A stretch of 64,000 bases of DNA, taken from contig CP049016.1 of NCBI GenBank assembly GCA_004376055.2, positions 1,922,001 to 1,986,000 on the forward strand. The letters are read 5' to 3'. The position numbers were made by a program, and so were the translations under genes. This DNA is from Nitrospirales bacterium LBB_01. GTDB lineage: Bacteria; Nitrospirota; Thermodesulfovibrionia; Thermodesulfovibrionales; Magnetobacteriaceae. Shown piece after piece: positions 56,763 to 61,927 of the stretch. The notes beneath the pieces were generated by a model. It was not told the origin of the DNA, did no database searches, and worked only from the letters and a program-made list of their open reading frames with translations. Positions within the stretch are counted from its first letter, which is position 1. Each line of letters opens with the position of its first letter.

Positions 56763-57620
56763 TTATTTAAAATCGCTTACATTAAGAGATTTCAGCATCT
56801 CGTTGACAGCGGCAATGCCTATCTTATCATTCAGTCCCTGATATGACAACAATGCCCGCTTGAAATATGTTGCTGCTTCTTTCATATCACCATCCTTATA
56901 AAACGTTGTGCCCAATCCCATTAAGTCAGCGGCAACCTTCTGTCCCTCGCCCAAATCCTTGTCCATTTGCAGGGCAAGCGTGTAGTATTTGACGGCATCT
57001 GTAAATCTATCTAAGTTTTCGTATCCCTCAGCCATTATGCGGTAGGAATTTGAAAGCTCATTTTTTTGTTCCTGAATACTGTTTAACTCTGAACCCTTTT
57101 TAGCCAAAAGCAGCGAATCAGTGTATAGCTTTTGAGCAAGGGCAAGTCTGGATTTTAAATTATAGATTTTTCCTGATATTGTACAAGTGCTTATACAATT
57201 ACTAAGGGCGGTATCCGCCCATTTTTCAGCAGATATTATGTTATTCTCTTCAAAATAAATCATCCCGTTTAAAAAAGCAGCCTCAGATAAAACATCATTT
57301 GGGAGCGTAAGCGGTATTTTCACAAAAAGTGTTTCAAGAAATCTGTGTGCCTCATTAGGTTTACCAGCCTTTCTATAGACCCGCGCTATGTTTATTATAT
57401 TTACCCCTATTCCATATTCGTTTTCACAGGAGTAGTCCACATCAAGTGCTGCCTCATAAAGTTTAAGCGCTCTTTGGTAGTTACCGCTCTTAAATTCAGT
57501 GTCAGCCTCAGTGACAAGTTTAACCGCTTTAGCCTCAGAATCAGATACAACCGGAGGCGCCGATCCGCACCCTGTAAAAGTTATAAGCAATGCTGCCAAT
57601 ACCAACATCTTGATTTTCAT
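56763..57620 (-). CDS. TPR-repeat lipoprotein of the Mce/Mla operon
   Basis: 285 aa. A lipoprotein signal with lipobox 'LLITFTGC' (Cys about residue 18). Several TPR units follow, such as 'EFKSGNYQRALKLYEAALD', 'YENLDRFTDAVKYYTLALQ' and 'FYKDGDMKEAATYFKRALL'. It is 2 bp downstream of the MCE gene, so it is probably an outer-membrane or periplasmic scaffold of the lipid-transport system. It takes the place of MlaA/MlaC-type partners, which are not seen. Confidence 0.85.
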   Translation of the reverse strand: MKIKMLVLAALLITFTGCGSAPPVVSDSEAKAVKLVTEADTEFKSGNYQRALKLYEAALDVDYSCENEYGIGVNIINIARVYRKAGKPNEAHRFLETLFVKIPLTLPNDVLSEAAFLNGMIYFEENNIISAEKWADTALSNCISTCTISGKIYNLKSRLALAQKLYTDSLLLAKKGSELNSIQEQKNELSNSYRIMAEGYENLDRFTDAVKYYTLALQMDKDLGEGQKVAADLMGLGTTFYKDGDMKEAATYFKRALLSYQGLNDKIGIAAVNEMLKSLNVSDFK

Positions 57621-57622
57621 GT

Positions 57623-58564
57623 CTATTTTAAACCGCTGCTGTCTGTGTTAGGGAGTTTTTGCGCCGCAGGAGTTAAATATGAGCTAAATGGCCACATTTT
57701 CTTAGCCGAATCCAACAAATCATCCGTGCTCCCTGCGATTGTCTTTGCTTTTTTCACAATGGCAGGAACATCTTCAGAAGCAGCTTCTGTCATCTTACTG
57801 ACATCTTGAGTTATTTTATTTAGATCATCTATGCTCTTGTCTATTTTCTTAATTATTGGCGGCAGAGATGCGTCCACCTTTTGTACTAATTGGTTGGTAC
57901 TTTGCATCACATCTGCTAATTCTTTATTTTTAGATTTAACGAGGTCATCGGCATTGCTGAGCAAAATATTCAGCTGTTGACCGGTTTTGGTCAACTCTGA
58001 TGTAAACACATGCAGGTTAGCGATGGTTAGTTTTAAGTCTCCATCAGGATCCTTTATGTACTTAATTATATCTTTTATATCAATAAGCACAGGCACTATC
58101 TCATCACGAAGCTCCGTTATCATCTCCTTAAAATCCTTATCAGCCACAAACTCAAGGGCGTCATACTCCTTGACACTACCGCTGACAATTTTACCCGTGC
58201 TTATATCTATCACAGAGTCACCTATTAAACTATCCTTAGTCAAAGTCACAGTGGAGTCTCTCTTTATCCATTTCAGGTATTTTGTCTTTATTGACATTGA
58301 TACTTTTATTTTGGCAATATCGTCCAAGTATAGTTTCTCTACGTTACCTATGGAAAATCCGCTTATCCTGACTGGCTGTCCCTCGTAAAGCCCTTTACCG
58401 CTGCTGGTGTAGAAATATATAATTTTCTTAGTGGTAAAGAACTCCTGTTTATATGCCATGTACATAAGCGCAATGAAAATACCAATCAGTCCAATAAGAA
58501 TGAACAGTCCTACTTTTCGTTCTATGTGCTCAAATCTTTGGTCAGTCCTTTTTAGGATGTCCAT
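57623..58564 (-). CDS. MCE-domain protein (MlaD type)
   Basis: 313 aa. One N-terminal membrane helix (about residues 17-36), then the MCE domain with 'SSGKGLYEGQPVRISGFSIG' (about 53-72) and 'DSTVTLTKDSLIGDSVIDIS', and a long C-terminal coiled-coil region. MCE proteins form hexameric lipid channels between membranes. It overlaps the ABC-like gene by 13 bp. Confidence 0.93.
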   Translation of the reverse strand: MDILKRTDQRFEHIERKVGLFILIGLIGIFIALMYMAYKQEFFTTKKIIYFYTSSGKGLYEGQPVRISGFSIGNVEKLYLDDIAKIKVSMSIKTKYLKWIKRDSTVTLTKDSLIGDSVIDISTGKIVSGSVKEYDALEFVADKDFKEMITELRDEIVPVLIDIKDIIKYIKDPDGDLKLTIANLHVFTSELTKTGQQLNILLSNADDLVKSKNKELADVMQSTNQLVQKVDASLPPIIKKIDKSIDDLNKITQDVSKMTEAASEDVPAIVKKAKTIAGSTDDLLDSAKKMWPFSSYLTPAAQKLPNTDSSGLK

Positions 58565-59223
58565 TTCACAAATCCTTCGTCTGTCTGCTTAAACGCTGTG
58601 CAATCGGGTATGTCTTTCAACGTATGTTCCTGAGTTGATATATAAAGTGAAACCCTCCCTGGCATCCTAAAATGGTAGTCCATAGTCAGTGTTAGCATCC
58701 TCTTCATTAAATCAACGCTTAAGCCAGCAAACACAGAATCATACACAATTATCCTGCAATTGTTCAACAGTGCTCTTAAAAGCGCCGTTATTTGTTTCTC
58801 CTCACTACTAAGCGTAGATGGCAGTCTTAAAACATAACCCCTTAAGCCCTCTTTGTCAAGCCCAAGCACCTCATAGAAAACTACCAATCGGTTCTCAATC
58901 TCTTTTAATTTTACCCCTTGATGATATTTTACCGGAAGCGTTATGTTTTCAATAATACTAAGGTTACTGATAAAGGTTAACTCTGCCGATGCTATCGCCA
59001 AACTTTTTAACATCTTATATTTTTCTTTTTCAGGCAAAGCACCGATATCACTCTCTGCGATGAAAACCTTACCGGAGTCCGGCACATTAACGCCAGTTAG
59101 AAGAGACAAAAAGGCAGCCCTGTCACCATTTGACCTTAAAAGCACCTTACACACAGAACCTCCGTTTAGCTCAAAAGAGACATTTTTAAATCCGCCATAA
59201 TAAACATTTTCAAACTTAATCAT
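58552..59223 (-). CDS. ABC-ATPase-like subunit (MlaF position) with lost catalytic motifs
   Basis: 223 aa with the length and order of MlaF-type ATPases. Walker A should be GxxGxGK(S/T) but reads 'LLRSNGDRAAFLSLL'. The signature LSGGQ reads 'LSSEEKQ'. Walker B keeps the Asp but the catalytic Glu is Ser ('IIVYDSVFAGLS'). The switch His region reads 'ISTQEHT'. ATP hydrolysis is therefore very unlikely, yet the frame is intact and overlaps both neighbours, so it is kept. It probably serves as a structural partner of the permease. Confidence 0.85.
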   Translation of the reverse strand: MIKFENVYYGGFKNVSFELNGGSVCKVLLRSNGDRAAFLSLLTGVNVPDSGKVFIAESDIGALPEKEKYKMLKSLAIASAELTFISNLSIIENITLPVKYHQGVKLKEIENRLVVFYEVLGLDKEGLRGYVLRLPSTLSSEEKQITALLRALLNNCRIIVYDSVFAGLSVDLMKRMLTLTMDYHFRMPGRVSLYISTQEHTLKDIPDCTAFKQTDEGFVKWTS

Positions 59224-60005
59224 AATTGTGAGAAGCTCAGGGTTATCAGTCCCTCCAGAAAAAACAGTACAAACACGCTCTGCATCACAGTTGCCACAGT
59301 AGCCCTTGGGATTTCCCTTATAGAGGACTTAACCATCATGCCCTGATAACACGCTATGGTTGATATTGCAACACCAAAGAAAAAACTCTTAATAAATGAG
59401 ATAACAATAGCTTTCATACTTAAGACAGAAATTATACTTTTTAGATATTTTAAAAAAGACACATCAAGCATAAACGAAAACATTAAGATGCCGCTCCCTA
59501 TAGAAACAATCTGCAAATAAAAGGTAAGCATGACAACAGAAATGGTAATTCCTACAATTCTGGGTAGTATCAAGTACTCAAGAGGCTCAATTCCCATAAT
59601 ATGGATACTTTCCATCTCCTTATTAATGGTCATAGAGCCAAGCTCAGAGGCTACAGCGGCAGAGCTCCGAATTACTACCAGAAAAGCGGCAAGAAGCGGC
59701 CCTATCCCGTTTACAACAGTGCCAATAAGGAGTTTACCGGTCAGCACCGCATCTGAACCCACTATGCTTTTAACCTGCCAAACAATTAACACCCCGATAA
59801 ACGCCCCAATGAGCGCAATCTTACTAAAGGCCTCAATACCGGTAAAGTATATCTGTCTGTACAGCAAACTTCTGACAGGCCCTACACGCAGAGCAGGCAG
59901 ACGTATTATGGTTACAAGGAAAAAAGTAAAAAAATGCACCAAATATGCGAACGAATTGGTTATTGATTTCCCAATGCTTTGCGCTGTCTTTAGAAATAGT
60001 CTCAT
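59220..60005 (-). CDS. MlaE-type ABC transporter permease
   Basis: 261 aa with about five or six membrane helices. Family motifs: 'YRQIYFTGIEAFSKIALIGAF' (about residues 49-69), 'GPLLAAFLVVIRSSAAVASELG', 'GIEPLEYLILPRIVG' and 'YQGMMVKSSIREIPRATVATV'. It is the membrane part of an Mla/Mce lipid transporter, overlapping the ABC-like gene by 4 bp. Confidence 0.93.
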   Translation of the reverse strand: MRLFLKTAQSIGKSITNSFAYLVHFFTFFLVTIIRLPALRVGPVRSLLYRQIYFTGIEAFSKIALIGAFIGVLIVWQVKSIVGSDAVLTGKLLIGTVVNGIGPLLAAFLVVIRSSAAVASELGSMTINKEMESIHIMGIEPLEYLILPRIVGITISVVMLTFYLQIVSIGSGILMFSFMLDVSFLKYLKSIISVLSMKAIVISFIKSFFFGVAISTIACYQGMMVKSSIREIPRATVATVMQSVFVLFFLEGLITLSFSQL

Positions 60006-60016
60006 CTAAAACACTC

Positions 60017-61927
60017 TCATGCAAGTCCGCCTATTCTATAGACGACGATTTTTTCCGTCTTACCTTTAAGAGACGCCTCTCCGACCTGTTTAGCGTAGAA
60101 CTTGTCACCGGTATATTTGTACGTGGACTGACCTATTAAAATTCTGCACGGTCTGCCTGCAAACTCACCGTCAGGAAGATCCTTATCAAAACTCTCAAGC
60201 CTTGAGGCAGTGTTAACCGTATCCCCTATTACCGTGTATTCAAGACGTTCGGAGCTTCCAAGACATCCGGCTATCAGAGGTCCTGTAAATATCCCCACTC
60301 TCATACTGGTCTTAGGGAGTCCCTGTTTTTCCCATTTCTCGTTTAACTTTACAAGCTCCTGTTCCATGCCAAGTGCGCAGTGTACAGCGTTTACAGCGTC
60401 CTCTGAAATTTCCGCATCTGTAGTTCTCTCTACCGGCACGCCAAATATTGCCATAACCGCATCCCCTATGTATTTATTAACGACCCCTCCGTTATTTAAA
60501 ACCATACCGGCCATAGCGTCCATGTACTCATTAAGCCAGTCCATAAGGCCTGCGGCGTCAAATTTTTCAGAGACGGAGGTAAACCCTTTTAAGTCGGTAA
60601 AAAGCACGGTAGCAATCAGTTTCTTAGGACAGGGTCTGCCGTCTTTTATAAATTCGTCTCTGTTTTCCCAAAGCGACTGTGCCACGGTCTTAGAGACGTG
60701 TTTACCGAATAGGTTCATAAGCATGTTTCTTTCAGCTTTTTCTTTTTTAGACATATAAGTTGTGATTACGGCCCCGGAAAAGATGAATGACATAATGGGC
60801 ACACCGCCTGGAATCCACCATCCTGATGCAAAACCTAAAAACGTTACGGCTACAATCACAGACAAGCTGACAAGAAGCGCTGCGATTAATCTTGAAAACG
60901 TTCTGAAAACAAATCCGAGCATGCCTCCGATTATTCCCCAAACAATAATCCAAACTCTGACAGCAGTTTCAGTCGGAAATTTTAGAGGACTATTCTCTCC
61001 GCCGGCGTATCTGATTAGCTCGCTTGTTACATGAGCATGAAGGTGCATTCCAGGCGTACCCTCTCCCATATTACTACCGCCAAGAGGAGTGTAAACAAAA
61101 TCCTTCATACTGCCTGCCGTAACTCCTACAATTACAACCTTGTCCTTCAAAGCATGCGGAGGAATTTTATCGGAAAGAACATCTGTCAGTGTGAACATTT
61201 TAAACGGTCCGCCTTTAAAATCAATTAGAAACAGATACCCTCCCATATCCGACACCTTGTATCCGCCATCGCCCTGTTTAAGCGGCACAAAGACAGCTTT
61301 ACCGAGTTTCATAAACCCTGTGGCATTGTCGGCCCCCGGCAAAATTGACTTGGATTTGAGGTAAATTGCAGCCAGCCTCATAGCAAAGGATGTTGAAAAT
61401 GTCTCCCCATCATCAAGAAACAGAAGTCCTCGCCGAATTATACCGTCCGTGTCGACAGGCATGTCGTTAAACCCTGCCCGTTCTGGGTCTTTCAGCACAT
61501 AGGGGGCGGCGATGGGGGGATTTGAGGCATCTCCTAATTTCTTAATCGCTATGATGTTATTATGCTCCTGAAACACTCTCAGCAGCTCCTCACCGCCGGG
61601 AGGCACGGGAATATCTCTGAATATATCAAGCCCTACAACGCAAGGCTCTTGCTTTAGGATATTTTTAAACATCTGAGCCATTGTTGCATCATTCATAGGC
61701 CACATCTGAAGCTTTTGGATATCACCCTCAGTAGCTTCTACTACCACTACTCTGTCATCTGCTTTTGTGCCTGAGAGGCTGTATCTAAGGTATCGGTCGT
61801 AGATTAAAAGCTCTACCTTGTCTGTAAATCCTCTCTCTCTTGCCAAAATAACAAACAGCGACATAACCGCCATTAAGACAAAACAGACAAAATGTTTTGA
61901 TTTGATAAATTTTATAACGTGGCGCAT
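60017..61927 (-). CDS. CHASE2-domain class III adenylate cyclase
   Basis: 636 aa. A membrane segment (about residues 12-28), a large extracytoplasmic CHASE2 domain ('DRVVVVEATEGDIQKLQMWP', 'VVGLDIFRDIPVP', 'PPHALKDKVVIVGVTAGSMKDF'), three membrane helices (about 330-410), and a cyclase domain: 'ATVLFTDLKGFTSVSEKFDA' with the metal Asp, 'NKYIGDAVMAIFGVP' and 'YTVIGDTVNTASRLESF'. The substrate-binding Lys favours ATP, so cAMP is expected. It is 11 bp upstream of the mlaE gene and heads the Mce operon. The 265-bp region upstream to the YdjM-like gene has no gene. Confidence 0.93.
   Translation of the reverse strand: MRHVIKFIKSKHFVCFVLMAVMSLFVILARERGFTDKVELLIYDRYLRYSLSGTKADDRVVVVEATEGDIQKLQMWPMNDATMAQMFKNILKQEPCVVGLDIFRDIPVPPGGEELLRVFQEHNNIIAIKKLGDASNPPIAAPYVLKDPERAGFNDMPVDTDGIIRRGLLFLDDGETFSTSFAMRLAAIYLKSKSILPGADNATGFMKLGKAVFVPLKQGDGGYKVSDMGGYLFLIDFKGGPFKMFTLTDVLSDKIPPHALKDKVVIVGVTAGSMKDFVYTPLGGSNMGEGTPGMHLHAHVTSELIRYAGGENSPLKFPTETAVRVWIIVWGIIGGMLGFVFRTFSRLIAALLVSLSVIVAVTFLGFASGWWIPGGVPIMSFIFSGAVITTYMSKKEKAERNMLMNLFGKHVSKTVAQSLWENRDEFIKDGRPCPKKLIATVLFTDLKGFTSVSEKFDAAGLMDWLNEYMDAMAGMVLNNGGVVNKYIGDAVMAIFGVPVERTTDAEISEDAVNAVHCALGMEQELVKLNEKWEKQGLPKTSMRVGIFTGPLIAGCLGSSERLEYTVIGDTVNTASRLESFDKDLPDGEFAGRPCRILIGQSTYKYTGDKFYAKQVGEASLKGKTEKIVVYRIGGLA

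Follow-up and report, generated by a model that had tools for sequence, protein, structure and literature searches.

What defines an ABC transporter is its pair of ATP-hydrolysing nucleotide-binding domains (NBDs), and the operon described here raises the question of what such a subunit does in a lipid transporter when its ATP site is gone. The gene occupies positions 58552..59223 on the minus strand of the window (the whole analysed stretch of 64,000 nucleotides from Nitrospirales bacterium LBB_01). It encodes a dead MlaF-like nucleotide-binding subunit of 223 aa, recognized by Pfam ABC_tran (30.3 bits), the motif table, AlphaFold2 (AF2) and a match to the MlaF fold. The reading frame is intact and overlaps the MlaE gene by 4 bp and the MlaD gene by 13 bp, exactly as given in the preliminary description.

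The alignment to canonical MlaF demonstrates the degeneration of the motifs (all coordinates on the minus strand). The Walker A position (59116..59139) reads LRSNGDRA versus canonical GxSGxGKS, and the signature (58789..58812) is LSSEEKQI in place of LSGGMxKR. Walker B (58732..58752) is IIVYDSV versus IxxFDEP, with the Asp retained and the catalytic Glu changed to Ser. The H-loop (58624..58644) is YISTQEH, its His being lost, and the Gln of the Q-loop is gone as well. None of the features of an enzymatic MlaF (Walker A GxxGxGK(S/T), LSGG, Walker B Glu and H-loop His) is present; judged by its sequence, the subunit is devoid of every motif of the standard ATP hydrolysis site. The preliminary description had called it catalytically dead by the simultaneous loss of Walker A, signature and Walker B Glu. 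The alignment confirms this and shows that the loss was even understated, the changes in the Q-loop and H-loop having passed unnoticed. The NCBIfam MlaF model scores the protein at 46.8 bits with a cut-off of 441, and no NCBIfam model names it.

The subunit belongs to a cassette of four genes, all on the minus strand. The MlaE-type permease (59220..60005; Pfam MlaE PF02405, 165 bits) represents, according to the MlaE tree and co-segregation, a subtype whose NBD partners in the sample were all dead or partly degenerate. The MlaD-type MCE protein of 313 aa (57623..58564; Pfam MlaD PF02470, 53 bits) consists of one TM helix, one MCE domain and a mostly helical tail of ~150 residues, which in the alignment terminates in a conserved Trp-containing motif. 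In the AF2 model of the monomer the MCE part is confident, and the tail is helical with low confidence. The fourth gene (56763..57620) encodes a TPR lipoprotein, assigned by Pfam TPR and by the lipobox-like N-terminus LITFTGCG. With an MlaE permease and an MlaD MCE protein in one operon the cassette is of the MlaFED type; its membrane subunit is MlaE and not the LetA/PqiA protein that distinguishes LetAB/PqiABC. A gene of a CHASE2-adenylate/guanylate cyclase (60017-61927, minus strand) lies upstream of mlaE, with 11 bp between its end and mlaE, and is possibly cotranscribed with it. It was rejected as a fixed partner of the cassette, being directly upstream only in the window and in a sister genome (L034).

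The preliminary description had proposed to search for orthologues with the same losses in the same operon, to check the selection pressure and to predict the structure. Orthologues were found in 10 of 60 relatives besides the genome of the window, with a score gap to ordinary ABC proteins; two share the genus of the window (72% and 67%), and the other eight, spread over several families, reach 31–35%. The gene is distributed unevenly and is missing from one genome of the genus whose listed completeness is 100%. Among 198 genomes of the phylum 12 had a match of ~296 bits or more, and the next best match scored 132 bits. The family alignment, run against 84,980 species, gave 79 loci. By motif and neighbourhood 72 of them are MlaE/dead NBD/MlaD cassettes, spanning Nitrospirota, Geobacteraceae, other Deltaproteobacteria, Gallionellaceae, other Proteobacteria, Verrucomicrobia and Ignavibacteria; the remaining 7 are one canonical MlaF (L099) and unrelated ABC proteins. 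MlaE homologues were detected in 67 of the 72 loci, MlaD was there in 71 and 66 had a TPR protein; nearly all loci place MlaE upstream and MlaD downstream of the NBD, and the orthologue of the TPR gene of the window lies directly downstream of MlaD in 64–66. A loss private to the genome of the window is ruled out by the same losses in ~70 orthologous loci.

The dN/dS ratio of the NBD gene (pairwise Nei-Gojobori, 16 close pairs) is 0.12–0.26, i.e. purifying selection; it is higher than that of MlaE (0.05–0.15) and close to those of MlaD and TPR. AlphaFold2 predicts a complete NBD fold (pLDDT 93.1, pTM 0.90). The match of the model to E. coli MlaF 6xgz has Z 24.6 over 216 residues with rmsd of 2.3 (Foldseek, VIA-align) and is tied with YbbA, LolD and FtsE. 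By profile the subunit stands nearest to MlaF, for the PDB sequences matched best by the family profile belong to an ABC ATP-binding protein (7d06, 6z5u; MlaF-type) and to Pseudomonas MlaF 7ch8. Since the losses recur in ~70 orthologous loci with an intact frame and under purifying selection, they are more than chance. The claim of a conserved but dead subunit is thus strongly supported by the motif loss across phyla, the four-gene cassette, the dN/dS values and the full NBD fold. The combination that would speak against it, namely orthologues with normal motifs together with relaxed selection in the copy of the window, was sought and not found.

How the ATP site may have been given up is suggested by the motif states. 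The canonical MlaF set, encoded beside MlaE in genomes of the same kinds, is complete in all 33 proteins: the Lys-Ser/Thr of Walker A, SGG, the Asp-Glu of Walker B, H and Q are all there. By alignment column, the dead class retains SGG in 0/68, Walker A Lys-Ser/Thr in 18/68, Walker B Asp-Glu in 1/68, the His in 1/68 and the Gln in 7/68 proteins. The members keeping Walker A are mostly Deltaproteobacterial, and nucleotide binding may persist in these 18, as their Lys-Ser/Thr pair suggests. Intermediate forms were retrieved by searching with the MlaE subtype in another phylum (148 genomes, phylum of G217). In these sister cassettes Walker A and the Q-loop are intact, the signature is LSLG or ISxG and not LSGG, Walker B is DE(P/I) or DD, and the H-loop His is replaced by Asn, Gly or Ser. 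Three of them were read further and have the order MlaE-NBD-MlaD-TPR, as in the dead cassettes. Partly degenerate MlaF proteins of this kind, with LSLG/ISxG and an intact Walker A but without the H-loop His, were observed in the MlaE-NBD-MlaD cassettes of L161-L168 and L209; possibly they are slow ATPases.

The state of the NBD goes together with the type of permease: the dead-subtype permease (240 bits or more) was always accompanied by a degenerate NBD, and canonical MlaE (~135–165 bits) always by an intact one. No cassette of this MlaE subtype with an intact NBD was seen either in the 148 genomes or, with an intermediate NBD as the query, in 198 genomes; only the partly degenerate intermediates turned up. 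Two apparent cases of MlaE alone (L160, L168) were rejected, for the genomes concerned have a degenerate NBD beside MlaD at another locus. In G321 (L160/L208) the dead-subtype MlaE is separated by ~12 kb from the dead NBD-MlaD-TPR genes.

In the NBD tree a single branch (100/100, bootstrap and SH-aLRT) parts canonical MlaF from the dead class, and the intermediates, when added, are placed between the two (SH-aLRT only). After removal of the motif columns the canonical proteins still stand apart (96) and the group keeping Walker A stays together (97), the order of the intermediates being weakly supported. The MlaE tree gives the same split, with the partners of canonical MlaF on one side (100). 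The simplest reading of these sequences, although not proven, is that the H-loop and signature were lost before the Walker B Glu, and the Walker B Glu before Walker A; loss of Walker A probably happened on more than one occasion. It is quite conceivable, with the balance slightly on the side of doubt, that a widespread branch of MCE systems gave up ATP stepwise and kept the NBD as an obligatory structural subunit, i.e. that it is a transporter of ABC architecture working without ATP hydrolysis.

What has been kept in place of the ATP site is seen from the conservation analysis. The most conserved segment, ISNLSIIENITLPVKYH (58921..58971, minus strand), follows just after the Q-loop. The columns of highest conservation (ISNLKVWENxxLPLxYH) are located here, with the reservation that their conservation is partly inflated by the use of ISNL..EN as the retrieval pattern, while LPxxYH is outside the pattern. 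Most Walker A columns are weak (median conservation rank 136 of 223). The intermediates retrieved via MlaE share ALISN..LPLRYH, and canonical MlaF has GALFDSMTVxENVAFPLxE at this place. In the architecture of ABC transporters the part of the NBD following the Q-loop receives the coupling helix of the permease. In MlaE the coupling helix is the helix between TM2 and TM3 (PMC7790496). Its region is MkvnxEIxxLexMGIdP in the dead class versus MKITEQIDALxxMxxNP in the canonical one, so that in the dead class a distinct coupling helix and a distinct post-Q-loop segment of the NBD go together. By analogy, the ISNLSIIENITLPVKYH segment is expected to dock the coupling helix of MlaE. A conserved dock combined with a lost engine is the pattern that a scaffold would show.

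We consider it probable, though by no means certain, that the subunit does not hydrolyse ATP and serves as a structural scaffold of an MCE lipid conduit, the conduit being passive or otherwise driven, and that the cassette represents a distinct branch of the MlaFED type. The transporter would be built of four proteins: MlaE, dead MlaF, the long MlaD and the TPR lipoprotein. Two copies of the dead NBD would dock on the coupling helices of the MlaE dimer and hold it together, and the movement of lipids between inner membrane and MlaD channel would be passive or would draw its drive from a source other than the dead subunit. The TPR lipoprotein might, speculatively, anchor or organise the distal end. 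Passive transport is what we infer from absence. MCE transport without an ATPase exists in the LetA and PqiA systems (LetAB, PqiABC; PMC12436622), which makes it plausible that an MlaE conduit, too, is passive or driven in another way. In A. baumannii, substitution of Leu for the Walker A Lys is by itself enough to render MlaF dominant-negative (PMC6365058). In canonical systems a dead NBD would, by this analogy, block transport rather than permit it, which counts against the scaffold; since the Walker A mutant is dominant-negative there, MlaE of the dead systems must have adapted.

An unlikely, yet the best surviving, alternative is that the dead subunit serves as a regulator or assembly factor and that the energy for the same MlaE comes from a normal MlaF encoded elsewhere, which takes the place of the dead subunit or takes turns with it, in the way that a single MceG serves several Mce systems in mycobacteria. 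All 17 genomes checked hold 2–4 MlaE loci, and in most of these loci a normal MlaF adjoins MlaE; the genome of the window (G000) itself has an mlaE-mlaF pair with intact motifs at ~3.044 Mb. Because of these further loci, replacement in trans is possible. G000 also contains, outside the window (contig 1, ~1905500–1906500, L153), a pair of a STAS (MlaB-like) protein and MlaE with neither ATPase nor MlaD adjoining. The matching MlaE genes of two sister species (L144, L145) likewise have no ATPase nearby. A shared MlaF is conceivable for this pair, which is a candidate for MlaF sharing in trans. In the dead class, however, the coupling helix and the docking segment of the NBD both differ from those of canonical MlaE/MlaF and go together, which suggests specific pairing, and the tight overlap of the genes implies that the dead subunit is supplied equally. 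Furthermore, as the dead subunit is without Walker A and signature, no complete composite site would form either in its homodimer or in a mixed dimer with normal MlaF, and the single-site rescue known from asymmetric ABC transporters is therefore unavailable. The preliminary description had offered passive or otherwise powered lipid transfer or an ATPase supplied from elsewhere; its dead and conserved part is borne out, and these options have to be weighed together with the other MlaE loci carried by the genomes checked.

Somewhat less likely still is a role as a sensor, in which a nucleotide or some other ligand still occupies the old pocket and the subunit gates the lipid channel without hydrolysis. 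Such a role would be in line with the Lys-Ser/Thr pair kept by part of the dead class, with the Walker A and Q-loop retained by the intermediates and with an acidic residue, Asp or Glu, in the Walker B Asp column of roughly nine tenths of the weighted family. It fits poorly to the protein of the window and its Nitrospirota relatives, which no longer have Walker A, and to the rather low conservation of the Walker A columns in the family. A decaying pseudogene, a frameshift or a sequencing artefact, with which the motif loss alone and the faster evolution of the NBD relative to MlaE would be compatible, is ruled out for practical purposes by the unbroken frames of three species in the genus and of ~70 loci, the low dN/dS, the orthologues, the intact predicted fold and the conserved gene order and overlaps.

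The cassette shares with MlaFEDB and minimal MlaEFD (E. coli, Acinetobacter, Veillonella) the presence of MlaE, an NBD of the MlaF fold and MlaD in one operon, and its long MlaD resembles that of three-component Mla systems (PMC10665443). In contrast to them, its NBD is without catalytic motifs, its MlaE subtype has another coupling-helix sequence, and its fourth gene is a TPR lipoprotein, with no MlaB or MlaC in the cassette. Like LetAB (YebST) and PqiABC it is an MCE system without a working ATPase (PMC12436622), and PqiC is also a lipoprotein; but LetA/PqiA are not MlaE and these systems have no NBD at all, whereas the cassette of the window keeps a dead NBD and an MlaD with one MCE domain. 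The phylogenomic survey of Mla systems regards MlaEFD as ancestral and the annotation of MlaF as uncertain, and the word "degenerate" is absent from its text (PMC10665443). No description of a dead or degenerate MlaF was found in the open-access literature searched, most subscription journals being outside this scope, and the novelty of the class is provisional. Heterodimeric ABC transporters (ABCG5/G8, TM287/288) also retain a degenerate NBD under selection, with the partner completing one site. Here, unlike in those, the only NBD of the operon is without Walker A and signature, which precludes a complete site.

A fully dead NBD as the sole NBD of an operon, found across phyla and with intermediates preserved, would be very unusual if true. 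Pipelines and surveys that name any ABC_tran match beside MlaE "MlaF" count such dead subunits as ATPases. The finding suggests that a whole class of lipid transporters kept the shape of the motor and gave up its fuel. It bears on a standing question of the MCE field, namely whether and by what energy phospholipids are moved from membrane to membrane and which way they go, and offers a natural control for it: MlaE with versus without an ATPase.
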